This document shows positions 16,857-32,644 of a stretch of DNA of 64,000 bases, one piece after another. The DNA is from Candidatus Bipolaricaulis anaerobius (GTDB taxonomy: Bacteria > Bipolaricaulota > Bipolaricaulia > Bipolaricaulales > Bipolaricaulaceae): positions 1,054,001 through 1,118,000 of the forward strand of contig NZ_LS483254.1 in the NCBI RefSeq assembly GCF_900465355.1, given 5' to 3'. The notes below the pieces were generated by a model. It saw only the letters and a list, made by a program, of their open reading frames with translations. It made no database searches and was not told the DNA's origin. Numbering within the stretch: position 1 is the first letter of the stretch; each line of letters opens with the position of its first letter. Both the position numbers and the translations under genes were made by a program.

Positions 16857-19800
16857 TCACCTTCTGCGGGCCCGGTGCCGCTTCATCCCATAGAGGACCT
16901 CGTCCGCCCGGCGGAGGAGGGCCTCGACCGTGGTCGGGCCATCCCGGACCGGGTTCCACACCGCGTGGCCCACGCTCAGGCTCACCGAAAGGCCGGGCAC
17001 GTCAGGGAGGGAGATCCCCCGCACCGCCTCCTGCAGCCGCGGGAGGACGCCCGTCCCGTCCCCCGTCTCGGGGAGGACAAGCACGAACTCCTCCCCCCCA
17101 TAGCGGAACACGTAATCCCCCGCCCGCACGCTCCCGCGGAGGACCTCCGCAACGCGGCGCAGCACGGCGTCGCCCACCAGGTGTCCATGACGATCGTTCA
17201 CACTCTTGAAGTCGTCAACATCCGCCATGACGAGGGTCAGGGGGTGTCCATAGCGCTTCGCCCGCTCGATCTCCCGCTCCAGGACCCCCACCAGAGTCCT
17301 CCGGTTGTAGAGGCCGGTCAGGGGATCGCGGATCGCCTGCTCCCGCAGTTGTTCCTCAACGCGGATCCGCCGGATCTCCTCCTGGAGGTGCCCGGCGAAG
17401 ATCTCGGCCACGAGCGTATCCTCGGCGGAGAAGGCATCGCACGCCGTGGACACCACCTGGAACACGCCGAAGTCCCCGATCGGAACGGACAGGATGCTCC
17501 GCAGATCGGGCCGGACCGGCCGCGCTTGCGGCATGTCCTCGAGGTTGCCCGAGATCGTTTGGCCGCGCGCAAGCGTCTGCCAGGCGACCCCCTCCCCCTG
17601 CCGCAGGGGGCGGCCCTCGACCCCCACCGAGGCCTGGGGGACGAGCCAATCCCCTTCGACCAGGCTCACGGTGTAGGTGGTGAACCCGAGGATCCGCACC
17701 GCCTCGTGGGCAGCCACCTCACACAGCTCTTCCACCGTCGTGCAGCTTGAAAGCCGCATCACCAGCCCGTGGAGGCCAGCCAGCCGCTCGTTCACGGCCT
17801 CCACCTGTCCCAGCCGCTCCAACCCGGCCAGAGCCACAGCGAGCTCGGAGGCAACGATGTTGAGGAGATCCCGGTCCTCGGCGGGGATCCCGCTTGCCGC
17901 CGCAGTTTGGACATCCAAAATCCCGAACACCCTCTCCCCGAGGACGATGGGGACGGCGAGCTCGCTATGCGTGGTGGGGTCCCCGATGACGTAGCGCTCA
18001 TCGCTCGACACGTCCGCCGCGTACTCCGGTTCCCGCGACCGGAACGCGGCGGTGGTGATCCCCCTCCCGTTCCTGCCGAATCGCATCCCCTGGGCCCACG
18101 CGATCTCGTCGTGCCCCGCCACCACCGTCAGCTCTTCCCCACATGGCTCGAGGATCGCGCATGGCCGATAGCCCAACACGGACCCGGTCAGCTCGAGGAC
18201 GAGGCTGTACAGTTCACCCTTATCGCGGGCGAGCTTCATTCGGCGCGAGTATGCCTCCACCCTCCTCAGCTTCTCCTCGAGGACCGCCAGTCCGGCGTAG
18301 GTGCGCGCGTTGTGGATCGCCGTGGCCACCGGGGCGGAGATCGTCTCCAGAAGGCGGAGGTCCTCCTCCCCGTAAGCGCCCGGAGCGAAACTTTGGACCG
18401 AGAGGGCGCCCAGCACCTCATCCTGAAAGAGGAGGGGGACGCCAAGCCAACTCCGCACATCCTTGCCCACCAATTGCGGCGCCGCCGGGAGCTGATCGCT
18501 CTCGGCCTCGAAGTCGCGGACGAGGAGGGGACGCTTGGTGGCCACGATCCAGCCCGTCAGGCTCTGCTCATGATCGAGGGGGTGCACGACCTCGGGAAGG
18601 CGCTCCCCTTCCTCCACTGCGTACGCAAGCCGGAACTCACGGCGGGCGGCGTCCACCAGTGCGAGGACGAACGCATCGCAGGGGATGAGCCGGGCGATCT
18701 CCTCGTACACCCGGGCGAACACGCTCTCGAGGTCGAGGCTCGTCCCCAGGGCAACCGACACCTCATACAGCCCTCGCAGGTTGGCGTTCAGGGCCTGGAG
18801 GTCCTCCACGATCTTCGCCCGCTCGATCGCCGCGCCAAGCGTCCTCGCTGCCATCCGGAGGGCCTCGACCTCGATCTCTGACCACTCCCGCTCCCGGACG
18901 CAGTCGTCGAGCCCGAGGAACCCCCACCGCTCGGTGGCCACGAAGATCGGCACGGCGAGGAGGGAGAGGATCCCCTGAGGCCGAAGGACGGACTGCTCCG
19001 CGGGGGGGAACTCCCGCACCGGGCCCGCGATCGGCTCCCCGCGGGAGAACGCCTCCTCCCACCGGGATAACCCACCCTCCAGGTACGGAAGACCCTGGAG
19101 CTTAGGGTTACCGATCTGGGGAGAGATGCCAGGTGCCACCCATTCGAACTTCTGGCTGGCCAGCCGTCGCCCGGCTGCGTCGCGGTGGTCCTGGAAGAGG
19201 TAGACCCGGCTCACCCCGATCGCCTCCCCTAGGCGAGCCAGAACCCCCGGGATCTCCTCATCGAGGGGCTGGGCCCGCAGGAACAGCTCTGCAGCGAAGG
19301 CCACGGCGCCGAGCACCGCGTCGCGGCGGGCGGTCGCCTCCTCGGCCGCCACCCGCTCCGTGAGATCAACGAGGGACACGAGAACGCGGTCGTAGGTCTT
19401 TTCGTGGCCGGGGAAGACCCGCCACTTGAGCTGAACGTGAACCGCCCTTCCCTGGACGTCTGGATTGACGACGAGGAAGGTCGCCTCCGTCTTCCCCTGC
19501 CAGATGGCGAGGAGCTGTTGGACAAACGGGGCGCCCGGTTCCGTAAGGATCTTCCCCCGAAGATGGGCGACCTGTTGGGCCTGGTCCCGCGCGCCGTAGA
19601 GGGCGAGGGCAGCGCGGTTGGCATGGACGAGGCGCATCGCTTCCGCACACGCCCGGAGGAAGTCGGGGTTCTCCGCGACGTAGGCTATGAGGTCGCTCAC
19701 CCCCTGCCCACGAAGGGCGTCGAGCATCGTCTTGACCCCTGAGAAGTCCTCCACGTGAATCCCCACCGGCGATTCCTCGAATAGGAGCCGCCACTGGGCC

Positions 19801-21230
19801 TCGCTCTCCCGGAGCGTGGCGTAGAGGGAGGCGTTCTCCAACGCCACCGCAATCTGGCGGGCGAGAGAGGTCAGGAACTCGACCTGCCCAGCGAAGGCCC
19901 TTCTCTCGTAGCTGTGGACGTAGAGGATCCCCATCACCCGCCCCTCGCCGCGGATGGGGATCCCCGCCAGGGACCGGATGCCTCCCTCAATGAGGACGGG
20001 GCTCACCTGGAGGGGGGCCTGGCGACGGCCCGGCCACCGGATCGGAGGATCGGTGGTCCCATCGTCCCGGATCTCCTCGATCACCACCGGCTGCCCCGTC
20101 TCCCGGATCCAGGCCGATAACCCGCGTTCGCGGATCTGGAGGGGGATCGGGGGCGCGCCGTGGGGCTCGAGGGTGCGGAGGGGCCGTCCCCCCTCATCGA
20201 ACAGGAGCACGTTGGCGAAGTCGGCCCCCGTGGCATCTTGTACCAGCGTAACCACGTCCTGGACAAGCTTATCTCGGTCGAGCGTCGCGGAGAGGAGGAT
20301 GGACGCGCGGTAGAGGGCCTGAAGCTGCGTCAACCGGCTCTCCAAAAGTTGTTCGAGGCCTTTGCGGTCCGTGATGTCCCGGTTCACCGACAGGGTGGCC
20401 GGCTTACCCTTGTACTCGAACAAGGTGATGGCGCAGTCGGTGATAAAGACTGTTCCATCCTTGCGGCGCTTCTTCTCCTCGAAGTGGACGATCTCCCCGT
20501 GGGCGAGCCGCTCGTTGGCCGTGTCATAGGTGATTGCCGGCTCCTCCGCAGCCAGATCGCGCATGATGTTCATCCCGATGAGCTCGGAGCGGGAGTAGCC
20601 GGTCTGCCTCTCCGCCGCCGGGTTGGCCTCGAGGATGGTCCCGTCGAGAGAGGTGATGTAGACGGGATCGGCCAGGCGCTCGAACAGGAGCCGGAACCGC
20701 CGCTCCGAATCAGCGAGCGCTGCCCGCTCCCGGGCCCTGCGCACAGCGAGGGTGATCTCCTCCCACACCCCCTGCAGACGGTCGAGATCAGCCGGAGAGA
20801 AGGCATCGGGATCGTCCCGGCTGTTCACGTTGAAGTAGGCGATCACCTCTCCCGCGACGAGGATGGGAAACGTGATGAACGCGGCAACGGGGAACGCATC
20901 GAGCTCGCGCGCAATGGGGGGAGGGAGGAGGTCGCGGTAGAGCCGCTGCGGATCGCGGATGATGGCCGGGCTCGTGAGGCCCAACTGGTGCTGGATGGTG
21001 CGGTCTTGGGGGAGCTTGAGCTGGGATAGCTCCCCCAGGTCATAGCCCACCGCGGCCTGATACTCGAACACCCCCTCCTCGTCGTTCAGGGAGAGAAAGG
21101 TCGCGGATTGGGCTTGGGGGAGGATCTCCAGGGCATGCTCCAGAATCGTGCGCGCGACAGCCGGGAGAGCGGGGTCGCTGTTCAGCGCCCGCAGGAACTC
21201 CACGAGATGTGCCCCATGTCCGTGGTCCAT
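16857..21230 (-). CDS. multi-GAF/PAS diguanylate cyclase
   Basis: The 1457-residue cytoplasmic protein makes cyclic di-GMP from two GTP in its C-terminal GGDEF domain (residues ~1290-1457), whose active site is RYGGEEF. The product-inhibition I-site RAGD stands five residues before GGEEF. In front lie about six GAF domains (roughly 1-170, 305-475, 645-795, 800-980, 990-1120, 1125-1270) and two PAS-like domains (172-295, with a clear PAS/PAC; and 480-635). No membrane helix is seen, so it senses intracellular ligands or redox cues through a long sensory stack. ATG 21230 has GGAGGAAGG about 10 nt upstream. It lies 4 kb from two c-di-GMP riboswitches and is the only cyclase in the window. Confidence 0.92.
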   Translation of the reverse strand: MDHGHGAHLVEFLRALNSDPALPAVARTILEHALEILPQAQSATFLSLNDEEGVFEYQAAVGYDLGELSQLKLPQDRTIQHQLGLTSPAIIRDPQRLYRDLLPPPIARELDAFPVAAFITFPILVAGEVIAYFNVNSRDDPDAFSPADLDRLQGVWEEITLAVRRARERAALADSERRFRLLFERLADPVYITSLDGTILEANPAAERQTGYSRSELIGMNIMRDLAAEEPAITYDTANERLAHGEIVHFEEKKRRKDGTVFITDCAITLFEYKGKPATLSVNRDITDRKGLEQLLESRLTQLQALYRASILLSATLDRDKLVQDVVTLVQDATGADFANVLLFDEGGRPLRTLEPHGAPPIPLQIRERGLSAWIRETGQPVVIEEIRDDGTTDPPIRWPGRRQAPLQVSPVLIEGGIRSLAGIPIRGEGRVMGILYVHSYERRAFAGQVEFLTSLARQIAVALENASLYATLRESEAQWRLLFEESPVGIHVEDFSGVKTMLDALRGQGVSDLIAYVAENPDFLRACAEAMRLVHANRAALALYGARDQAQQVAHLRGKILTEPGAPFVQQLLAIWQGKTEATFLVVNPDVQGRAVHVQLKWRVFPGHEKTYDRVLVSLVDLTERVAAEEATARRDAVLGAVAFAAELFLRAQPLDEEIPGVLARLGEAIGVSRVYLFQDHRDAAGRRLASQKFEWVAPGISPQIGNPKLQGLPYLEGGLSRWEEAFSRGEPIAGPVREFPPAEQSVLRPQGILSLLAVPIFVATERWGFLGLDDCVREREWSEIEVEALRMAARTLGAAIERAKIVEDLQALNANLRGLYEVSVALGTSLDLESVFARVYEEIARLIPCDAFVLALVDAARREFRLAYAVEEGERLPEVVHPLDHEQSLTGWIVATKRPLLVRDFEAESDQLPAAPQLVGKDVRSWLGVPLLFQDEVLGALSVQSFAPGAYGEEDLRLLETISAPVATAIHNARTYAGLAVLEEKLRRVEAYSRRMKLARDKGELYSLVLELTGSVLGYRPCAILEPCGEELTVVAGHDEIAWAQGMRFGRNGRGITTAAFRSREPEYAADVSSDERYVIGDPTTHSELAVPIVLGERVFGILDVQTAAASGIPAEDRDLLNIVASELAVALAGLERLGQVEAVNERLAGLHGLVMRLSSCTTVEELCEVAAHEAVRILGFTTYTVSLVEGDWLVPQASVGVEGRPLRQGEGVAWQTLARGQTISGNLEDMPQARPVRPDLRSILSVPIGDFGVFQVVSTACDAFSAEDTLVAEIFAGHLQEEIRRIRVEEQLREQAIRDPLTGLYNRRTLVGVLEREIERAKRYGHPLTLVMADVDDFKSVNDRHGHLVGDAVLRRVAEVLRGSVRAGDYVFRYGGEEFVLVLPETGDGTGVLPRLQEAVRGISLPDVPGLSVSLSVGHAVWNPVRDGPTTVEALLRRADEVLYGMKRHRARRR

Positions 21231-21330
21231 CAGCGCGGCACCTTCCTCCGGACGAGCGGCATTATCCGAAGCTTACCGGTCCCGATCCAGGCGCGGGGCT
21301 TCCGTCAAGAGGGCAGATCAGCCACCTCCG

Positions 21331-23904: not shown

Positions 23905-24777
23905 ATGCGCGCCGCGTGGAATGGGGGCCTCTGGCGAGCGGGGGCGGTGGCCCTCGTGGCCGCCCTGGGCGTCGTGGGGAGCGGAACCTCCCCGCAGGAG
24001 AAACTCGCCGCCGCTGAGGCGCTCTACAACCGGTGGGATGGGGCGTTTGAGTTCACGGCGTACGAGGCCCGCCTCCGGGGGGCGATTTCGCTGTGGGAGG
24101 AGGTGTTGGCGGCCACGGACCTGACGGTGGACGAGCGGGAGGCGGTGCTCGTCCGCCTGTCCCGGGCCTACTTCGAGCTCGCCGAGGCGTACCTCCCGGA
24201 CGGGGAGCGCCGCGCGGCGTACGCGACGGGCGAGGCGGCGGGCCTTGCCGCGCTGCGCCTCGATCCGGAGTTCGCCCGCGTGGAGGGCATCCACGGGTTC
24301 CGCGCCGCCCTGGGGGCGGCCGCGGAGGTTGGGGCGATCTTCTGGTACGGGAACAACCTCGGCCGGAGCTTGAATTACGACTACGGCCGGGCGTTGTTCG
24401 GGGGAACGCGGGACGTGCTCGCCGCGTTCACGCGGGCGGTGGAGCTTGACGAGGCATACTGGGGCGGGGGGCCCCACCGCGCGCTCGCGAACTTCCTCGC
24501 CCAAACCCCGGGGTTCCTCGGTGGCGATCAGGCCCAGGCGGGCCTCCACTTCGCCCGCGCTGTCGAGCTCGATCCGGCCTTCGTCCAGAACTACGTGGAT
24601 TGGGCCGAGTTCTATGCCAAGCCGCGCCGCGAGTGGGACACGTTCTGCCGGCTCCTCCACGTAGCCCTCGCCGTCGGGGACGACCCCGCCCAGCGGGAGC
24701 GGTGGCCCCTCTACAACCACCTCGCCCTCACCCGAGCCACGGCCCTCCGCGCGGAGCCCCCGGAACGCTGTCCCTGA
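23905..24777 (+). CDS. TatT-like TRAP transporter accessory protein (TPR-type)
   Basis: The 290-residue protein has an N-terminal signal sequence (GAVALVAALGVVGSG) and helical TPR-like repeats, ending in the pattern LHFARAVELDPAFVQNYVDW followed by AEFYAKPRREWDTFCRLLHVAL. This matches the TRAP-T (TatT/Tp0956) periplasmic helper family, whose trimer is thought to deliver ligands to a TRAP transporter. No TRAP transporter genes lie nearby. ATG 23905 is chosen because TATCAT at 23892-23897 is 7 nt upstream, implying a leaderless mRNA; an in-frame GTG at 23869 lacks a ribosome site. Confidence 0.7.
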   Translation: MRAAWNGGLWRAGAVALVAALGVVGSGTSPQEKLAAAEALYNRWDGAFEFTAYEARLRGAISLWEEVLAATDLTVDEREAVLVRLSRAYFELAEAYLPDGERRAAYATGEAAGLAALRLDPEFARVEGIHGFRAALGAAAEVGAIFWYGNNLGRSLNYDYGRALFGGTRDVLAAFTRAVELDEAYWGGGPHRALANFLAQTPGFLGGDQAQAGLHFARAVELDPAFVQNYVDWAEFYAKPRREWDTFCRLLHVALAVGDDPAQRERWPLYNHLALTRATALRAEPPERCP

Positions 24778-24807
24778 GGCTCATCCCCGTGAACGTGATG
24801 GATGCAC

Positions 24808-24835
24808 TTGTCGGTTGACCGAACTTGCATATAAT
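24808..24835 (+). promoter_or_regulatory. promoter driving the riboswitch-controlled surface locus
   Basis: TTGTCG (24808-24813), a 16-bp spacer and a perfect TATAAT (24830-24835) predict transcription from about 24842. The leader begins with a strong hairpin (CCCCCG at 24851-24856, CGGGGG at 24860-24865, loop TCT) and then enters the first riboswitch. The leader is about 135 nt long. Confidence 0.75.
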
Positions 24836-24881
24836 GCAATCACTTACTTACCCCCGTCTCGGGGGAGGGGAGGTGGCACCG

Positions 24882-24971
24882 GGCAACTGACCTCGACCGT
24901 CCGATAAGGGCAAACCCACGGCAACGTGGGGACGCAAAGCCAACAGGTCCCTCAGGGATGGCTGGGTTGCC
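24882..24971 (+). promoter_or_regulatory. cyclic di-GMP-I (GEMM-I) riboswitch 1
   Basis: The core reads AAGGGCAAACC, then a 6-bp hairpin CCCACG/CGTGGG closed by the GNRA loop GCAA (24921-24924), then GGGACGCAAAGCC, a second arm (AGCCA 24938-24942 with TGGCT 24959-24963, TCCC/GGGA on top, internal CAGG as the tetraloop-receptor side) and GGGTTGCCG. These are the invariant GEMM-I elements. The nucleotide before CAAACC is G, the G20 equivalent that favours c-di-GMP over cGAMP. GGCAACT (24882-24888) can pair with GGTTGCC (24965-24971) as P1, though 19 nt separate it from the core. The aptamer ends 5 nt before the start codon of the next gene, so control of ribosome access is likely. Confidence 0.9.
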
Positions 24972-24976
24972 GAAGC

Positions 24977-25450
24977 ATGGTCAGGAAAATGGTTGTGCTG
25001 GTGATGATTGGCCTCGCGGCGGGGAGCGTCCTGACATGGGGGAGCGAAAAAACAGCGGGGGCTCAAGCTGCCCTGACGATCCCCTCCCTCTCCCGCCTCT
25101 CCGTGGCGGGGACGAGCGCTACGGGGCGAGAGGTCTCGGTCTCAGTGGAGATCCCTCCTGGGGCGGCCCCCACCACAGGGGGCATTGAGCTAGCGAGAGC
25201 AGTCGTCCTCGTGGTGCGTAGCAACGTGCCGTGGACGCTCGTCGCACGGCCGGGCGACCTCCTCACGGAGGGGGCCATGGAGGCCCGCGTCGGGCGTGAC
25301 GACTACCGGCCGGTCCGGCCGGAGGGGCTGGTCCTCGCCCAGGGAGCGCCCGGGGTGCACGAGATCGTGCTCGACTACCGGGTAGCCTGGGGCGAGGCCG
25401 GGTGGAGCGGTGAGAGCTCGCTCACCCTGGTGTACACGATCGAGGGATAG
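24977..25450 (+). CDS. small secreted beta-rich protein 1 (pilin-like candidate)
   Basis: The 157-residue protein has a signal peptide (MVVLVMIGLAAGSVLTWG) and a mature region with alternating hydrophobic strands that ends in SSLTLVYTIEG. The closing pattern (xLxxTYTL) recurs in the two following secreted proteins (FTYTLTAP, FTYTLTTP), and all three have a strand of the type VRSNVPWTLVARPGD or WSNKSWTLTVAADA. I infer a common small beta-sandwich fold, possibly a surface or fimbrial subunit. It starts 5 nt after riboswitch 1 with no Shine-Dalgarno. ATG 24989 is an alternative start. Confidence 0.65.
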   Translation: MVRKMVVLVMIGLAAGSVLTWGSEKTAGAQAALTIPSLSRLSVAGTSATGREVSVSVEIPPGAAPTTGGIELARAVVLVVRSNVPWTLVARPGDLLTEGAMEARVGRDDYRPVRPEGLVLAQGAPGVHEIVLDYRVAWGEAGWSGESSLTLVYTIEG

Positions 25451-25605
25451 GTGGGCCCATGCTCGAGGACGGACGCGGCGTGGGGCGATGGACGCTGGCC
25501 GAAAGCCTGCGGGGAGCCCGTGTACGATCGGGCCAGAGTAGAGACGGAGGTGAAAGCCGAAGCAAGGCCACTACGGAAAGGGACAACGGCATCTGGACAC
25601 AACGA

Positions 25606-25683
25606 GGTGACCGAACAGGCAAACCCGGGGCGACCCGGGGACGCAAAGCCACAGGTCTCCCAGAGGGAGATGGCTGGGTTGCC
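25606..25683 (+). promoter_or_regulatory. cyclic di-GMP-I (GEMM-I) riboswitch 2
   Basis: P1 is GGTGACC (25606-25612) with GGTTGCC (25677-25683), 7 pairs including two G-U. P2 is CCCGGG/CCCGGG around the GNRA loop GCGA (25630-25633). The joining strand GGGACGCAAAGCC is intact. P3 is AGCCA/TGGCT plus TCTCCC/GGGAGA with loop AGA. G is retained before CAAACC (G20 equivalent). It lies between secreted proteins 1 and 2, so it can tune the second gene separately from the first, whether on a readthrough transcript or its own. Confidence 0.93.
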
Positions 25684-25689
25684 GAAACG

Positions 25690-25725
25690 CCTCCAAGAGA
25701 AGGACAATTCAAACTTTCTTGGAGG
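25690..25725 (+). promoter_or_regulatory. Shine-Dalgarno-masking hairpin (expression platform of riboswitch 2)
   Basis: CCTCCAAGA at 25690-25698 is perfectly complementary over 9 bp to TCTTGGAGG at 25717-25725, whose GGAGG is the ribosome site of the gene at 25733. The 18-nt loop is A-rich. The hairpin lies 6 nt after the aptamer and has no T-run, so it should act on translation rather than termination. Whether c-di-GMP opens or closes it cannot be told from sequence alone. Confidence 0.8.
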
Positions 25726-25732
25726 TGCAGTG

Positions 25733-26242
25733 ATGAAGGTTCGTACGCTTACGGTTGGCATGTTGGCATTGGGGCTGCTGGTGGGCGTGGCAGGGATGGC
25801 GCAAGTGACACAGGGCTCGACGGCTCAGTTCACGGTGCCGACGTTGATCCGGCTCTCCCTTACGACGAGCACGGTCAACTTCGGTGCCCTGACCGAAGAC
25901 GACTACGATCTAGGGTTCAAGGATCTCTATACGGCACAGGGGATCCAGATCTGGAGCAACAAGAGCTGGACCCTGACCGTGGCCGCAGACGCTGCGACGT
26001 GGACCGGTCCGTGGGCGAAGCCCTCCACCGACCTTCAGTGGCGGGCCGTGACCTCGGATGGACGCGTCACCTCGTTCGAGAACACGTTCACTGGGCTGAC
26101 GAGCGGAGCGACCCAGGTTGCCGCTGGCACGAGGGGCGGGAACATCCAACTCTCGATGGACTTCCGGGTCCTCGTGAGCTGGGAGAACGACCCGGCCGGC
26201 GACTATAGCGTGGGGTTCACCTACACGCTCACCGCCCCGTAA
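25733..26242 (+). CDS. small secreted beta-rich protein 2 (pilin-like candidate)
   Basis: The 169-residue protein has a signal peptide (MLALGLLVGVAGMAQV) and a mature domain that is a clear paralogue of the C-terminal half of the protein at 26319: both contain VxxGALTxxxYDxGxK, VAADAATWT and a final GxYxxxFTYTLTxP. Translation starts at ATG 25733 behind GGAGGT, the site masked by the riboswitch 2 hairpin. No catalytic residues or cysteines are apparent; a structural subunit is the best guess. Confidence 0.7.
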   Translation: MKVRTLTVGMLALGLLVGVAGMAQVTQGSTAQFTVPTLIRLSLTTSTVNFGALTEDDYDLGFKDLYTAQGIQIWSNKSWTLTVAADAATWTGPWAKPSTDLQWRAVTSDGRVTSFENTFTGLTSGATQVAAGTRGGNIQLSMDFRVLVSWENDPAGDYSVGFTYTLTAP

Positions 26243-26259
26243 TGAGGGCACAACCATGG

Positions 26260-26290
26260 GCAGCCCGGGTTCACGCGGAATCCGGGCTGC
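26260..26290 (+). terminator. hairpin between secreted proteins 2 and 3
   Basis: GCAGCCCGG (26260-26268) and CCGGGCTGC (26282-26290) make a 9-bp stem with a 13-nt loop, followed by the partly T-rich TCCTGTTCTC. It may end most transcripts after gene 2 or protect the upstream mRNA, making secreted protein 2 more abundant than the products downstream. Confidence 0.5.
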
Positions 26291-26318
26291 TCCTGTTCTC
26301 GTGGGAAGACGGGGGAAC

Positions 26319-27242
26319 ATGATGAACCGCACGCGGCAGCTATTGGGCCTGCTCCTCTTGTTCGTGGGGCTGGCGGGACTGGCCCAAGAGACGGGGTGGA
26401 TGGACCCGTCGGCGGATATGGGGCAGTTCACGAATGGCCCCCGTGCCTACCACCGCGACGGACGCTACGCGGTCGCTTCTCACGGGCAAGAGCACAGCTA
26501 CGAGGGCTACGGGATCTCCCTTCCCGGGGGGAGCGAGGTCGTGGGGATCGAGGTCCTCTTCACGGCCCGCAAGGACGGCCCCACCAATTCATCGCTCGAG
26601 GTGGAACTGTCATGGGATGGCGGGGTGAGCTGGACCGCCACGGGCTACGGAGTGGGGCCAATGCCGGCCAGCTGGAAGAACTACGTCGCAGGGGGGAGTT
26701 CCGACACGTGGGGGCGGACGTGGGCACCCAATGAGCTCGGCGATGGAGCGTTCCAGGTGCGGATCCGGGCGACCCACAATTCGCGTTTGGACTGGGTAGC
26801 GGTGCGGGTCCACTACCGGGAGGAGATCGCCCAGACCCTGATTGTGACCCCGCCGCTCGTGGATCTGGGGGCGCTGACCCTCGCCCACTACGACGCAGGC
26901 TACAAGGAAATCTCCCCCGCCCAGAGGGTCACGGTGTCGAGCCCCACCGCATGGTCCCTCGTTGTAGCCGCGGACGCCGCGACCTGGACCTACACCGGGT
27001 CGGAGGCCCCGCCGGGGAAACCTTCCTCCCACCTCGAGTGGCGGGTCAACGCATCGGGCCCGGGGACCACCGACTCTCAGACGAGCTACACTGGCCTGAC
27101 CACGGCGTCCCACACGGTGGCCCGGGGGGCGGCGGGTAGCGGCCTGTGGCTCGAGGTCAGCCTGCGGGTCCGGGTGGACTACGACACCACAGTCCCCGGC
27201 ACGTACGAGCTCCGCTTCACCTACACGCTGACCACACCGTAG
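26319..27242 (+). CDS. secreted protein 3: N-terminal beta-sandwich plus pilin-like C-terminal domain
   Basis: The 307-residue product has a signal peptide (LLGLLLLFVGLAGLAQ), an N-terminal domain of about 150 residues (VVGIEVLFTARKDGPTNSS, then VELSWDGGVSWT and RIRATHNSRLDWVAVRVHY) that looks like a jelly-roll adhesive or carbohydrate-binding module, and a C-terminal domain paralogous to secreted protein 2. A two-domain layout of this kind is what a tip adhesin would look like; that role is inference. The ribosome site GGGGGA is close to the ATGATG at 26319/26322, so the exact start is uncertain by one codon. Confidence 0.65.
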   Translation: MMNRTRQLLGLLLLFVGLAGLAQETGWMDPSADMGQFTNGPRAYHRDGRYAVASHGQEHSYEGYGISLPGGSEVVGIEVLFTARKDGPTNSSLEVELSWDGGVSWTATGYGVGPMPASWKNYVAGGSSDTWGRTWAPNELGDGAFQVRIRATHNSRLDWVAVRVHYREEIAQTLIVTPPLVDLGALTLAHYDAGYKEISPAQRVTVSSPTAWSLVVAADAATWTYTGSEAPPGKPSSHLEWRVNASGPGTTDSQTSYTGLTTASHTVARGAAGSGLWLEVSLRVRVDYDTTVPGTYELRFTYTLTTP

Positions 27243-27253
27243 ACGACGGCGCG

Positions 27254-27259
27254 TATACT
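27254..27259 (+). promoter_or_regulatory. -10 box of a leaderless transcript
   Basis: TATACT lies 6 nt before ATG 27266, and no ribosome site occurs in between. Transcription would begin at or next to the start codon. A CTGACC at 27228-27233 is a weak -35 at 20-bp spacing. Confidence 0.5.
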
Positions 27260-27265
27260 TCGGTC

Positions 27266-28273
27266 ATGAGAAAGCTCCTCTGGATCACGATCCTTCTCGC
27301 CAGCTTCTCGGGGGCAGGCCTCGAGGTGAACCTCCTCGAAGTGGACCTCTCGGTAGCTCCAGGGCAGGCGTACACGTTCTCGTTCACCGCCCGCAATGAG
27401 ACGGAAGCCCCGGAGACCTTCTTCGTCTACGCCGGCGACTGGGACCGCGATGAGATGGGCGAGAACAGGTTCTACCCTCCCGGGACGCTCCCCCGCTCGC
27501 TCTGCTCCTGGCTCACCGTAGCCCCTGGCTCCTTCACGTTGGGCCCCGGGGAGACCCGCGAGATCGGGGGAACGCTGCACGTGCCCACCAATGCCGCGCC
27601 GGGGACCCACTGGGGGATCGTGTTCGTCCACGGCGAGCCGCGGCCGGTGGAGCACCAGGGGACGACGGTGATGGTCGCAAAGCGGATCGGGATCAAGGTC
27701 TACGCCACGGTGGGGTCAGCCCCGGCCGAAGGAGAGGTGCGGAGGATGGAGTTCCGCGGCCTGAATCCCCTCTGGCTCGGGGTGGAGTTCACCAACGCCG
27801 GGCCCACCAACCTCCGCGAGGTCCGGGTGGAGGTTCAGATCTACGACGCCGTGGGGGAGCGCGTGGCCGAGGTCAAACCAGCTCCCGTTCCCTGCCTCCC
27901 CGGGGCAAGCCGATGGGTGATCGTGGAGACGGACCTGCGCCCCACCCCCGGGACGTACCTCGTAGTGGCGCGGGTGGACCTGGGAGGGGAAGAGATCCTC
28001 GCCGCCCAGGCCTACCTACGGGTGCGACCCCTGTCCCTCGTCCCCCTCTCCGGGGGCACCGTGCCGGGCGACCTCGATCGCGATGGCCTGTACGAGGACG
28101 CAAACGGGGATGGCACGTTCGATGAAGAGGACGTGGCCTTGTTCCGGACCCATGTCACGAGCGCGCCCGTGCAGGGCAATGCCCGGGCGTTCGACTTCAC
28201 CAACGACGGCCGCGTGGACGAGGCGGACGTGGAGGCCCTGATGGCGCTCCTCGCTGCCGCACCCGTGCCGTAG
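27266..28273 (+). CDS. periplasmic chaperone-like protein with C-terminal dockerin-like repeats
   Basis: The 335-residue protein has a short signal peptide, then two Ig-like domains. The first (VDLSVAPGQAYTFSFTARNE, then LTVAPGSFTLGPGETREIGG, APGTHWGIVFV, MVAKRIGIKVYAT) has the layout of PapD-like pilus chaperones and DUF916-like proteins. The second is residues ~160-255. The last ~65 residues hold two acidic repeats, GDLDRDGLYEDANGDGTFDE and FDFTNDGRVDEADVEALM, which match dockerin/EF-hand-type calcium loops. It lies between the secreted subunits and the beta-barrel protein, the place of a chaperone in a chaperone-usher operon. The chaperone role is inference. Confidence 0.6.
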   Translation: MRKLLWITILLASFSGAGLEVNLLEVDLSVAPGQAYTFSFTARNETEAPETFFVYAGDWDRDEMGENRFYPPGTLPRSLCSWLTVAPGSFTLGPGETREIGGTLHVPTNAAPGTHWGIVFVHGEPRPVEHQGTTVMVAKRIGIKVYATVGSAPAEGEVRRMEFRGLNPLWLGVEFTNAGPTNLREVRVEVQIYDAVGERVAEVKPAPVPCLPGASRWVIVETDLRPTPGTYLVVARVDLGGEEILAAQAYLRVRPLSLVPLSGGTVPGDLDRDGLYEDANGDGTFDEEDVALFRTHVTSAPVQGNARAFDFTNDGRVDEADVEALMALLAAAPVP

Positions 28274-28342
28274 GCAGCACTTCCCCTCGCCCCCGCACCT
28301 CCTTCCTCGCCTCCCCCCCTCTCGCCCTCTACAGTCACGAAG

Positions 28343-31228
28343 ATGGGAACGTGGCGGGTGTGCCTACGCATCGGGCTTGGGCTCGGCCTCGGAGCGTTCC
28401 TCGTCGGCATGGGGCTCGCAGCCGGGGCAGGGATCGCGTTGGAGCTCGTTTCCCCCCCCCGCACCGTCGCCCCGGGCGAGGTGGCGATCCACGTCTTTTC
28501 GGTCTCCAACCCAACCTCATCCACCGTGGTGGTCGAGCTAAGCGCGGATGCCCCTCTGGGTTGGGGCACGCTCGATCTTCCTCCCATCGTGTCCCTTGGG
28601 CCGGGAGATGAGGAGGCACTGTTCGTGACGGTCGTCGTGCCCCGCACCGCGGTGGCCGGCGCGCACATCGTGCGCCTGAAGGCAGCCTGGGACAGCGGCG
28701 AGGCGGTAGCCGAGGCGACGGTGCACGTCCTCGCCATGGCCGCGGTCGGGCTCATCCCCCCGCCCGCCGGCGAAGGGGAGCCGGGAGCGACCGTGGCTTA
28801 CACCCTGACGGTCCTCAATCGGGGGAACGGGCTCGACCGCTTCCTCGTCGCCGCCTCCTCCGCCCACGGCTGGCCGGTGCGGATCGAGCCCCAGGAGCTC
28901 GCCCTGCGCCCCGGGGAGAAGGGGACCATCGAGCTCCTCCTCTCCCTCCCCAGTTCGGCCGAACCAGGGCGCGACCTCCTCACCGTGACCGTCCGCTCGA
29001 CCGAGGGGGCGGAGGCCCGGGCCGCGTGGTTCACGACGATCCTCCCCCCGGGGCCGGAGGCAATCGTGGGCACCGTGTTCTCCGCGCTCGAGATGCGCCT
29101 GGGCGGGAGGCTCGGGTACGACCCCCTCTCCGGGCGCCGGCTGTCGCTCCTGACCCTGTCCGGGGGTGGGGAGGTCCTGGGCGGGGAACTGGGCCTTCAC
29201 CTCCAGCTCACCGGGCCCTGGGGGCCGGATCCGTACAGCCTAGCAAGGTTTTCACTGCGCTACCTCCAGGATTGGGCCTGGGTCGAGGCGGGGGAGGTCG
29301 GCCTCGATCTTTCCTCCCTCCTTCTCTCGCTTGGGGGAAGCGGGATGTGCGCCGGCGTCGCCAGCGAGAGGGGGGAGGCGGCCCTCCTCACCGGCTGGCA
29401 GGGGGACGAGGGGAGATTCGGAATCCGCGGGGCATGGCGGGGGGGATGGGGGGAGCTCGGGGTGGCGGCGCGGGAAACGCGAGGGACGGACTCCCTCCAC
29501 GCCGGCTCTCTCTGGATCACCGGGCACCTCGGGGAGGGCCTCACCCTGCGCGGGGAGGGGGGGATCGCAGTTTCGGGCCCGCATCGGGAGGCGGGGGTCC
29601 TCGTCGGCCTCACCGCGGGGACGGGGGCGACCCTCTCCTTCCAGGCCGATGCCTACGCAGTGGGGCCGCGGCTCCCCAGCCCGCGGGCGGACCGGGCGGG
29701 GATCAGCTTCGCGGGGCAACTCGCGGCGGACGCGGTGGCGCTGCGGTTCATGACGCGCTGGGAGAGGGACAATGTCCTCGGGGTCGCCCTCGTCCCGACC
29801 GTGGTCCGATCGGACCTCACCACCGCGGTGGATTGGTCCCCGTCGGGGTCGCGTCTGGCGCTGTTCGCGACGACCACCGTCCGCCGCAGCCAGGGATTCG
29901 GCCCTGGCCCCGCGCTCGACCGGCGGAACCGCATCCTCGACCTGGCACTGGCCGTCACCGACCCTTCGTTCGCGTTCCGGCTGAGCGGACGGTGGAGGTG
30001 GGAGGAGGACCTCGCGGCCATCTCCTGGCAGCGGACCGACGAGTATGCCCAACGGTTCACCCTCGCCCTCGGGCAGACCAAGGCGACCCTAAGCCTGACC
30101 GAGGTCGCCTCCATCGGTGACGGAGGCGCGACCCCGGTGGTGAGCCAGGCAAGCGTGGACGTCCTCACCCCGGCGGGGCTGGCCCTTGGCTTCCGCCACG
30201 CCTCCGATGGGGGAAGGGTGGGGATCGAGATCCCAGTTGCCCTCTCCCCCGCAAGCTCGATCACCCCCCGCCTTGAGGTGCGGTGGGATCCCGCCGGTGA
30301 GGCGAGCTCCCTCTACGCGGAACTCAGGTTCGAGCACGCCTTCATCGCGACCCCCCCCCTCCTCCCCGCCCGGGGGTGGATCGAAGGCGTGGTGTTCGTG
30401 GATGACGATGGGAACGGACGCCTTGACCCGGGCGAGCTCGGGATCGTCGGGGCGGTGCTCGAGATGGACGGGACCCGCGTCGCAACCGGGGCCGATGGGC
30501 GGTTCCTGTTCCCTCCCCTCGCTCCGGGAGCGTACAGCCTTGCCATCGGGCGCCTCCCCGCGGGGTTCCGGGCCCAGGTAGAGCTCCCTCTCCAGGTCGA
30601 GGTCGCGCTCGCTGGGCGGACGGTCGTCCACATCCCGTGCAAGCGGTTGGGGGAAATCGCGGGCGTGGTGTACGACGACCAGGACAAGAGCGGATCCCGC
30701 GACGGTGGGGAACCGGGGCTGGGGCGGGTGCGCGTGGTCCTCGCCCAGGACGGGGTGGACGTGGGGGAGGCCCTCTCGGATCCAACGGGGGCGTTCTCGT
30801 TCCCCGACCTCCCGGGGGGCGAGTACTGGGTAAGGGTGGACGCGACCTCCCTCCCCGAGCGGTACGAGCTCACCACGCCCGTCGCGGTGGTGGTGGGGTT
30901 GGGGCCGGGTGAGAGCGAGGAAGTGCTGTTCGGGGCCTGGCAGAAGCCGCGGCCGGTGGTGGTCGTGTACCGGCCCCCAGTGGCGGACTTCACGTGGGAG
31001 CCGACTTCCCCTCAAGCGGGGCAGCCGATCACGTTCGACGGCGGGGCCTCGCTCGGGGAGATCGTGAACTACCGCTGGGACTTCACCGCTGATGGGACCT
31101 TCGATGCCGAGGGCGTCCGCGTGGCGTGGACGTTCCCCGAACCCGGGTTCTACCTCGTAACCCTCGTCGTGACCGACGACAAGGACCTGACGGGCAAAAC
31201 CGAGCTCCTCATCTCGGTGGTTCCCTGA
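28343..31228 (+). CDS. large envelope protein: Ig-like domains, beta-barrel, SdrD-B repeats, PKD
   Basis: The 961-residue protein has a signal peptide (1-30), two NEW3-like Ig domains (~32-130, 135-235), a ~430-residue region of alternating hydrophobic/polar strands with glycine turns (for example ALRFMTRWERDNV, YAELRFEHAF) typical of an outer-membrane beta-barrel, two SdrD-B-type domains (EGVVFVDDDGNGRLDPGE at ~674, AGVVYDDQDKSGSRDGGE at ~772) and a PKD domain (~880-961). It resembles a usher or porin with periplasmic and surface modules. TACAGT 7 nt before ATG 28343 suggests a leaderless mRNA. It is the last gene of the surface locus. Confidence 0.65.
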   Translation: MGTWRVCLRIGLGLGLGAFLVGMGLAAGAGIALELVSPPRTVAPGEVAIHVFSVSNPTSSTVVVELSADAPLGWGTLDLPPIVSLGPGDEEALFVTVVVPRTAVAGAHIVRLKAAWDSGEAVAEATVHVLAMAAVGLIPPPAGEGEPGATVAYTLTVLNRGNGLDRFLVAASSAHGWPVRIEPQELALRPGEKGTIELLLSLPSSAEPGRDLLTVTVRSTEGAEARAAWFTTILPPGPEAIVGTVFSALEMRLGGRLGYDPLSGRRLSLLTLSGGGEVLGGELGLHLQLTGPWGPDPYSLARFSLRYLQDWAWVEAGEVGLDLSSLLLSLGGSGMCAGVASERGEAALLTGWQGDEGRFGIRGAWRGGWGELGVAARETRGTDSLHAGSLWITGHLGEGLTLRGEGGIAVSGPHREAGVLVGLTAGTGATLSFQADAYAVGPRLPSPRADRAGISFAGQLAADAVALRFMTRWERDNVLGVALVPTVVRSDLTTAVDWSPSGSRLALFATTTVRRSQGFGPGPALDRRNRILDLALAVTDPSFAFRLSGRWRWEEDLAAISWQRTDEYAQRFTLALGQTKATLSLTEVASIGDGGATPVVSQASVDVLTPAGLALGFRHASDGGRVGIEIPVALSPASSITPRLEVRWDPAGEASSLYAELRFEHAFIATPPLLPARGWIEGVVFVDDDGNGRLDPGELGIVGAVLEMDGTRVATGADGRFLFPPLAPGAYSLAIGRLPAGFRAQVELPLQVEVALAGRTVVHIPCKRLGEIAGVVYDDQDKSGSRDGGEPGLGRVRVVLAQDGVDVGEALSDPTGAFSFPDLPGGEYWVRVDATSLPERYELTTPVAVVVGLGPGESEEVLFGAWQKPRPVVVVYRPPVADFTWEPTSPQAGQPITFDGGASLGEIVNYRWDFTADGTFDAEGVRVAWTFPEPGFYLVTLVVTDDKDLTGKTELLISVVP

Positions 31229-31357
31229 GGGGGAAGCCACAGCGGCGCCGACGGGGAGCCTCTACCATGGTGTACACTCGCCTCACTTCCTCGGGCGGAT
31301 CGCGCGAGTTCCATCCGCTTCAGGTATTGCGATGGGTTGCTGCTAGGGAGGCGTAGC

Positions 31358-32644
31358 ATGGCTGCACCAGGAGAGAAGACAGTCAGCCGTCTGCCGCGCA
31401 CGGACCGCGGCCGGGCGACGCGGGAGCGCCTCCTCCACGGCGCGGAGGAGGTGTTCCGCGAGCGGGGGTACAAGGCGGCCTCCGTGTCCGCAATTTGCCG
31501 GCGGGCGGGGCTCGCCCAGGGCACCTTCTACCTCTACTTCGTGAGCAAGGAAGAGGTCTACGTCAACCTGGTGGAGGCTCTTCAGAATGACCTCGTCGCG
31601 ACGCTGCGGAGCAGCACTGCTCCGAACCCCGACCCGCGCGCACAGCTCATTGGTGCGTACGACGCCCTACTGGATTTTATCTCCGAGAATGCAGGCCTCT
31701 TTCAAGTGTTCCGCGAGGCGGAGTTCGTCCGCCCGGAGATCCCGAAGCGGTTCTATGCCGCAGTGTGTGCCGAACTGATCTCTGTCCTGGAGGCCGGCAT
31801 CGCGGCCGGGGCGTTTCGCGACTTGGACCCGGAGGTGGTCGCGTACGCGGTCCTGGGGGCGGTGTTCTTCCTCGCAGTGCGGTACGTGATGTGGGAGGGG
31901 AGGGCCATTCCCCCGGAGGCGCGGCGCGTCGGGGCGGATCTCATCCGACAGGGGATCGCAGGCGATCGCAGCCCGATCAAGTACGGAGGGGAACCCGCGT
32001 CGGGGTCTGTTCAAGACAGCGCAGCGGCGCCATCTCCGCAGGGGCTGGAAGGAGGGGAAGCCACCCGACACGCGCTCCTCATCGCTGCCGAACGGGCGTT
32101 TGGCCAAGCAGGGTTCCACCAGACCACGATCTCGACCATCACCTATCTGGCCGGGGTTGGCCAAGGCACGTTCTACATCCACTTTCCGAGCAAGGTCGCC
32201 ATCTTCAGCGAGCTGGTGCGGGAGATCAGCCGAGAGTTCCGGTACCGACAGAGTCTCGCGGTGGCCCACCACGTGGATCGACGAGCGGTTGAAGCTGAGG
32301 GATTCCGTTCGTTCCTGCGCTGGGTGCGTGATCACCCGGGGGCATACCGCATCGTCCGGGAGGCGGAGTTCGTGGACGAAAACGTTGGCAAATGGTACTA
32401 CACGCGCCTTGCGCAAGGGTACGCGCGGGGACTGTCCGCTGGCATGAACCGCGGAGAGATCCGCCGCTGTGACCCAGAGGTCCTGGCGTACACTCTCCTC
32501 GGCATCGGGCACTTCGCAGGCCAGCGGTGGGAACTGTGGGGAGGGGAGAAACCAGCCGAGAAGGCTCTCCCCGACTTGATCAGTCTGATCCTGTACGGGG
32601 CCCTGAAGGAACCTCACGCTACCAAAGTCCCCTGCGACTACTAG
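31358..32644 (+). CDS. tandem TetR-family regulator (two complete TetR units)
   Basis: The 428-residue protein contains two full TetR/AcrR modules. Each has a helix-turn-helix (RERLLHGAEEVFRERGYKAA and GTFYLYFVSKEEVY in the first; HALLIAAERAFGQAGFHQTT and GTFYIHFPSKVAIF in the second) and its own ligand-binding half (FREAEFVRPEIPKRFY, paralleled by VREAEFVDENVGKWYY). An internal duplication is plain. One chain can thus form the usual four-helix DNA-binding pair alone. ATG 31358 follows GGAGGCG. It stands upstream of the acyl-CoA cluster and probably represses it, with an acyl-CoA or the imported acid as ligand. Confidence 0.88.
   Translation: MAAPGEKTVSRLPRTDRGRATRERLLHGAEEVFRERGYKAASVSAICRRAGLAQGTFYLYFVSKEEVYVNLVEALQNDLVATLRSSTAPNPDPRAQLIGAYDALLDFISENAGLFQVFREAEFVRPEIPKRFYAAVCAELISVLEAGIAAGAFRDLDPEVVAYAVLGAVFFLAVRYVMWEGRAIPPEARRVGADLIRQGIAGDRSPIKYGGEPASGSVQDSAAAPSPQGLEGGEATRHALLIAAERAFGQAGFHQTTISTITYLAGVGQGTFYIHFPSKVAIFSELVREISREFRYRQSLAVAHHVDRRAVEAEGFRSFLRWVRDHPGAYRIVREAEFVDENVGKWYYTRLAQGYARGLSAGMNRGEIRRCDPEVLAYTLLGIGHFAGQRWELWGGEKPAEKALPDLISLILYGALKEPHATKVPCDY

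Follow-up and report, generated by a model that had tools for sequence, protein, structure and literature searches.

Can a single second messenger exchange two paralogous subunits of a surface fiber by acting on neighboring riboswitches of opposite sign? This question can be asked of a locus of Candidatus Bipolaricaulis anaerobius in which two class I cyclic di-GMP (c-di-GMP-I) aptamers and five exported-protein genes stand in the order RS1-A1-RS2-B2-C3-D4-E5. The locus lies in the window analyzed here, a stretch of 64,000 nucleotides (positions 1054001-1118000 of a genome that consists of one contig of 1,324,338 bases), whose numbering is used throughout. The founding description of Ca. Bipolaricaulis reports that genes for fimbriae, pili, and adhesins were not found and leaves the outer membrane undecided (PMC6092417). 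We read the locus as a chaperone-usher-like surface fiber that sequence profiles do not recognize and whose subunits are switched by c-di-GMP, a reading to which we assign a probability of roughly 0.6. All results are computational and come from profile, fold, and covariation analyses of sequences. The aptamers, the synteny, the predicted folds of B2 and E5, and the covariation of pairings were computed; we infer fiber assembly, the chaperone role, and the direction of switching.

Composition and conservation of the locus

24900..24975, + strand: RS1, c-di-GMP-I aptamer (Rfam, 64.9 bits), ending 1 nucleotide 5' of the A1 start codon
24977..25450, + strand: A1, exported pilin-like protein of 157 residues, from a hidden Markov model (HMM) and its open reading frame (ORF)
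25609..25687, + strand: RS2, c-di-GMP-I aptamer (Rfam, 64.1 bits)
25733..26242, + strand: B2, exported pilin-like protein of 169 residues, probable major subunit from its AlphaFold model and fold matches
26319..27242, + strand: C3, exported protein of 307 residues with an extra N-terminal domain and a B2-like domain, a tip-adhesin-like layout
27266..28273, + strand: D4, exported immunoglobulin (Ig)-type protein of 335 residues with a dockerin-like EF-hand tail, candidate chaperone from its sequence
28343..31228, + strand: E5, usher-like protein of 961 residues with two Ig-like domains, a barrel, two SdrD/transthyretin-like domains, and a PKD domain

The first-pass annotation of this DNA had described two GEMM-I aptamers and five consecutive exported proteins, and both descriptions were borne out: Rfam recovers the aptamers at the scores listed, and all five confirmed ORFs specify a hydrophobic N terminus. 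RS1 and RS2 score above the gathering cutoff of RF03167 and are also detected by RF01051 (c-di-GMP-I). We do not conclude that they are true GGC-variant aptamers, because the window copies carry an A where the GGC-variant model has a G and RF01051 finds them too. The genome has five c-di-GMP-I aptamers, namely RS1, RS2, and three on the opposite strand about 32 kb upstream, and 14 control genomes have none; RF01051 likewise reports five in this genome. Three GGDEF proteins are encoded in the genome, which makes a c-di-GMP signal plausible and is consistent with RS1 and RS2 being predicted c-di-GMP binders. An open frame of 1471 residues with a C-terminal GGDEF domain and an intact GGEEF motif lies about 3.5 kb from the locus (window positions 16860-21272, minus strand).

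The named relatives retrieved with D4 are metagenome-assembled genomes of Candidatus Bipolaricaulota, two of them labeled Bipolaricaulaceae. Synteny by tblastn, with regions taken from relatives, recovered the same five-gene order in well-assembled genomes of the genus and in genera g5, g10, and g12 of the family, a check that the first-pass annotation had proposed; contigs of some relatives stop within the locus. Both aptamers occupy the same two positions in every relative whose contig extends to them. The locus is thus not a chance arrangement, since gene order and both aptamers recur. More distant relatives (e.g., G021, G026, G018, G051, and G058) keep the D4-E5 pair, and at most of these loci riboswitch-pilin genes flank it on one side or the other. 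E5-type proteins occur class-wide, many as partial matches due to the common PKD, NEW3, or SdrD domains. Subunit, chaperone-like, and usher-like genes form a conserved cluster, one mark of membership among chaperone-usher systems. In other families of the class, 13 of 20 sampled pilin-like gene loci have a c-di-GMP-I aptamer on the same strand at most about 100 nucleotides upstream, and the chance expectation for an aptamer directly upstream of such a gene is about 1.4e-4 per locus. Two c-di-GMP-I aptamer-like motifs 60 to 80 nucleotides apart precede pilin-like genes at four loci of other genera (L095, L096, L098, and L106).

Predicted folds of the exported proteins

One domain family comprises A1, B2, and the C-terminal portion of C3; no convincing Pfam match to it was found. 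A1 belongs to this pilin-like family with an HMM E value of 3e-35, and the C-terminal domain of C3 is the B2 domain (hhalign probability 100). The FTYTL-type terminal strand that had been ascribed to all three proteins is literal only in B2 and C3; A1 ends in LVYTIEG, although it belongs to the same family. The sequence profile of the family retrieved only TLP-1/TLP-2 chains with a plausible E value (8e-4). The AlphaFold model of B2 has a predicted local distance difference test (pLDDT) score of 90, and its best PDB matches are TLP-1a/b of 16-chain structures (E values of 1e-6 and 8e-6). Some glycosidase chains come next and then, at E values of 1e-3 to 5e-2, CfaB, PapA, the PapG and FimH pilin domains, FimG, CsuA/B, and archaeal filaments, with 7UEG and 7PNB among the weak matches. 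The structure comparison proposed in the first-pass annotation thus led to TLP-1 assemblies and then to donor-strand pilins. The TLP-1 16-chain assembly (PDB 9IKJ/9IKK) is the best match of B2 by both structure and sequence profile, its subunit having 236 residues and B2 169. Residues up to 38 of B2 lie outside the sheet of the model; C3 has no such N-terminal extension and carries a different domain there instead. The tip adhesin suggested earlier therefore persists as a likeness of layout, in that C3, with one extra domain before the subunit domain, resembles two-domain tip adhesins.

D4 shows two Ig-like stretches by sequence and, in 22 of 24 members, a dockerin-like EF-hand tail; one member of its family matches PapD_N weakly (E value of 0.07). 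From its position and Ig character, D4 is a candidate periplasmic chaperone. In one relative, a second D4-like fragment stands between D4 and E5 (L071:10128-10715).

E5 had been described as a beta-barrel protein of 961 residues. The barrel is there, with about 26 long strands in residues 249-669 (29087-30349), and is flanked by two NEW3-type Ig domains and by two SdrD/transthyretin-like domains plus a PKD domain, which the earlier description had missed. Foldseek with its AlphaFold model (pLDDT 89) placed FimD/PapC ushers at ranks one to four and in 10 of the top 17 PDB matches overall (probability 1.00, E value of about 2e-15), in line with the usher role first proposed for this product; most of the other matches are strings of Ig domains. 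E5 thus has the features of the usher fold, a large barrel between N-terminal and C-terminal beta domains and ushers as top matches, at low template modeling (TM) scores. Omp85 is encoded in the same genome.

Riboswitch platforms and transcription

24869..24875, + strand: GGAGGTG, conserved Shine-Dalgarno (SD)-like element 5' of the RS1 aptamer
24882..24887, + strand: GGCAAC, possible P1* strand whose complement, GTTGCC (24966-24971), lies in the 3' end of the aptamer; partner bases covary
24895..24898, + strand: GACC, 5' strand of RS1 helix P0, pairing with GGTC (24979-24982), which spans codon 2 and the final base of the A1 start codon
25604..25609, + strand: GAGGTG, 5' strand of RS2 helix P0, pairing with CGCCTC (25688-25693)
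25688..25727, + strand: SD-sequestering hairpin of RS2 (CGCCTCCAAGA...TCTTGGAGGTG), in which GGAGGTG (25721-25727) is the B2 SD

The B2 SD is held in a hairpin that follows the aptamer at 20 of 20 loci. Its 5' arm (CRCCYC) has a second partner at all 20, the GRGGUG immediately 5' of the RS2 aptamer, with which it pairs 6/6. P0 takes the anti-SD arm, so that the helix extending the aptamer competes with SD sequestration. All three strands covary in g5 (L078/L079), and in g12 (L085-L089) the anti-SD arm tracks the 5' strand despite loss of its pairing to the SD. The re-pairing test for RS2 P0 gave 0.009, a figure that, like those for RS1 below, is not a strict probability because the loci share ancestry. 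In the ligand-free state, the hairpin would hide the B2 ribosome-binding site; c-di-GMP would stabilize the aptamer together with P0, which would capture the anti-SD arm. Ligand is thus predicted to free the ribosome-binding site and turn B2 ON. A terminator-type platform for RS2 was ruled out because the hairpin contains the SD and no T-run follows, as was a long in-frame ORF across RS2, where other genera have short open frames. A conserved GGAGGTGARAGCCGAARG-like block lies about 50 to 70 nucleotides 5' of the RS2 aptamer in relatives and perhaps belongs to a separate transcript start.

RS1 ends 1 nucleotide before the A1 start codon at all 17 loci where both were read, and none of these has an SD between aptamer and start codon. 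At 16 of the 17, four bases of the 5' flank pair 4/4 with a stretch made of the final start-codon base and the three bases after it. This P0 changes in a compensatory manner across genera (GACC/GGUC, GGCC/GGCC, and AGCC/GGCU), and 0 of 2000 random tries reached the observed mean energy in a re-pairing test on 12 representative loci. Since it includes a base of the start codon, the aptamer together with P0 should cover that codon, and c-di-GMP is predicted to turn A1 OFF. The alternative partner of the aptamer end would be P1*, a GGCARC that matches GYUGCC and in most loci lies 6 to 7 nucleotides behind the SD-like GGAGGUG; it was not found in L085. Without ligand, P1* would free the start codon and could draw the upstream SD close to the AUG, which is the weakest step of the RS1 model. 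A short upstream ORF (GTG...TGA) in the leader as the cause of the conserved GGAGGTG was ruled out, its frame not being kept in relatives.

RS1 and RS2 therefore appear, from these covarying and different platforms, to be of opposite sign, which the first-pass annotation had not seen. It is somewhat unlikely that both act with the same sign, P0 and P1* of RS1 being aptamer-stabilizing helices and not a switch; such an arrangement would concern regulation only and fit any reading of the fiber. The P1* re-pairing test gave only 0.02, on related loci, and minimum-energy folds computed for the window leaders only give no clean separation of the states, RS1 showing P0-like pairing with and without the aptamer constraint. 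However, RS1 P0 follows the changes in A1 codon 2 and takes in the start codon, whereas RS2 P0 captures the anti-SD arm; the same helix would thus have opposite consequences. Control of surface structures by c-di-GMP riboswitches has precedents: in C. difficile they act on type IV pili and flagella with opposite signs (PMC6366702), and many tandem copies exist (PMC9481103). Here, two aptamers with different platforms serve paralogous subunits of one locus, and RS1 abuts the start codon. We know of no case of two neighboring class I copies with opposite platforms on paralogous subunits, although our search was not exhaustive.

24808..24835, + strand: sigma-70-like promoter TTGTCG-16-TATAAT upstream of RS1
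26258..26292, + strand: GC-rich intercistronic hairpin of about 15 base pairs 3' of B2, present in all near relatives
27254..27259, + strand: TATACT, conserved -10 box ending 6 nucleotides before the D4 start codon

The single strong promoter proposed earlier is the sole sigma-70-like match in 24600-31400, and relatives have similar -10 boxes at about the same position upstream of RS1. Its sole command of the locus is doubtful because D4 carries its own conserved -10 box: such boxes lie 10 to 19 nucleotides before the D4 start at 18 of 26 loci but in just 2 of 78 control windows, a pattern suggestive of a leaderless D4 promoter. The TATAAT-like box directly before the D4 start in relatives also suggests leaderless transcripts in the phylum. 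Direct RNA control, earlier extended to all five genes, is accordingly supported for A1 and B2, each preceded by an aptamer, possible for C3, which is reached through the strong intercistronic hairpin, and unproven for D4 and E5. Known pilin operons have comparable leaky stops, and the hairpin after B2 is as expected if the major subunit is produced in excess.

Proposed fiber assembly and competing readings

In the chaperone-usher-like reading, B2 would be the main subunit, an Ig-type fold whose free N-terminal extension would serve as donor strand; C3 would be a two-domain tip-like subunit and A1 an alternative subunit. D4 would likely act as periplasmic chaperone and E5 as the outer-membrane pore that exports the fiber, while c-di-GMP would act on the subunit mRNAs. 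A fuller version, in which the machine is remotely related to chaperone-usher systems or separately evolved and c-di-GMP swaps A1 (start codon hidden) for B2 (ribosome-binding site freed), is advanced tentatively. The locus, known here from sequence and models, resembles chaperone-usher pili (type 1/P, CFA/I alternative, and archaic Csu) in its gene cluster, ordered as in fim, in a pilin-like subunit fold with N-terminal extension next to a two-domain tip-like subunit, and in a large predicted outer-membrane barrel that bears beta domains at its N- and C-terminal ends. It differs by the NEW3, SdrD, and PKD accessory domains of E5, the dockerin-like tail of D4, and its origin in a phylum without reported pili; archaic chaperone-usher systems have been recorded in Proteobacteria, Cyanobacteria, and Deinococcus-Thermus (PMC4654587).

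Several observations weigh against this assignment. No relation of the locus proteins to usher, chaperone, or pilin families could be detected from sequence: Pfam and NCBIfam gave no fimbrial family for any of them, as the first-pass annotation had said, and hhalign against E. coli K-12 FimC, FimD, and FimA found no homology, single sequences making this a weak test. The usher family PF00577 is not listed for E5 or any of its 31 homologues and is absent from all 40 genomes (0/40), with a positive E. coli control. The E5 barrel has no domain-sized insertion (plug) between the strands of residues 249-669 and about 26 strands instead of 24. Global TM scores to ushers are 0.25-0.30 by query and 0.29-0.44 by target, so that E5 and the ushers agree in topology and in the series of domains but not closely in shape. 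The weak sequence matches of D4 favor NEW3/WxLIP over PapD, and its separate -10 box leaves co-regulation of the assembly genes unproven. We call the locus chaperone-usher-like because it is functionally closest to these systems, yet lacks PF00577 and the plug.

A filament that assembles itself by donor strands, of the archaeal thread/bundling pili or TasA type, would need no usher; B2 would polymerize outside the cell and E5 would be an unrelated outer-membrane anchor or passage. The TLP-1 structures closest to B2, along with its matches to archaeal bundling pili and the Sulfolobus thread, speak for it, as do riboswitch-pilin genes away from E5 in some class members (L103 and L106). We nevertheless consider it rather unlikely, given that D4 and E5 remain paired across much of the class and that most such loci also have adjoining pilin-like genes, that ushers are the best matches of E5, and that B2 also matches CfaB, PapA, and FimG. 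Still more doubtful is a WxL/WxLIP-like surface layer that forms no fiber, in which D4, as a DUF916-like Ig protein, would hold WxL-like A1, B2, and C3, with E5 as a structural protein of the envelope. Four D4 relatives match WxLIP_PGBD (best E value of 2e-5), and an invariant W with W-x-L-like surroundings is common to A1, B2, and C3, as is a Y-T-L strand toward the C terminus. Yet no WxL profile matched in 26 members, the first 50 fold matches of B2 include pilins and no WxL structure, and this diderm-type genome encodes Omp85 and an usher-like barrel, whereas WxL systems belong to Firmicutes.

As a chaperone-usher-like system, the locus provides the phylum with a specific fiber candidate and a predicted outer-membrane barrel, and suggests that export of this kind may extend beyond the reach of sequence profiles.

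Directly 3' of E5 lies the gene for a TetR-type regulator whose single chain holds two TetR_N domains (window positions 31337-32644); it keeps this position in several genus members. The three other aptamers lie outside the window on the minus strand (L006:9083-10763, equal to genome C1:1045082-1046762). The first and the start codon of an S8 subtilase-like protease overlap. Behind the second stands a terminator-like hairpin that carries a T-run and shares sequence with the aptamer end, and the third precedes the gene for a repeat surface protein of 1897 residues. Their arrangement suggests a predicted pattern of protease OFF and giant surface protein ON, which resembles the control of a protease and adhesin in C. 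difficile.

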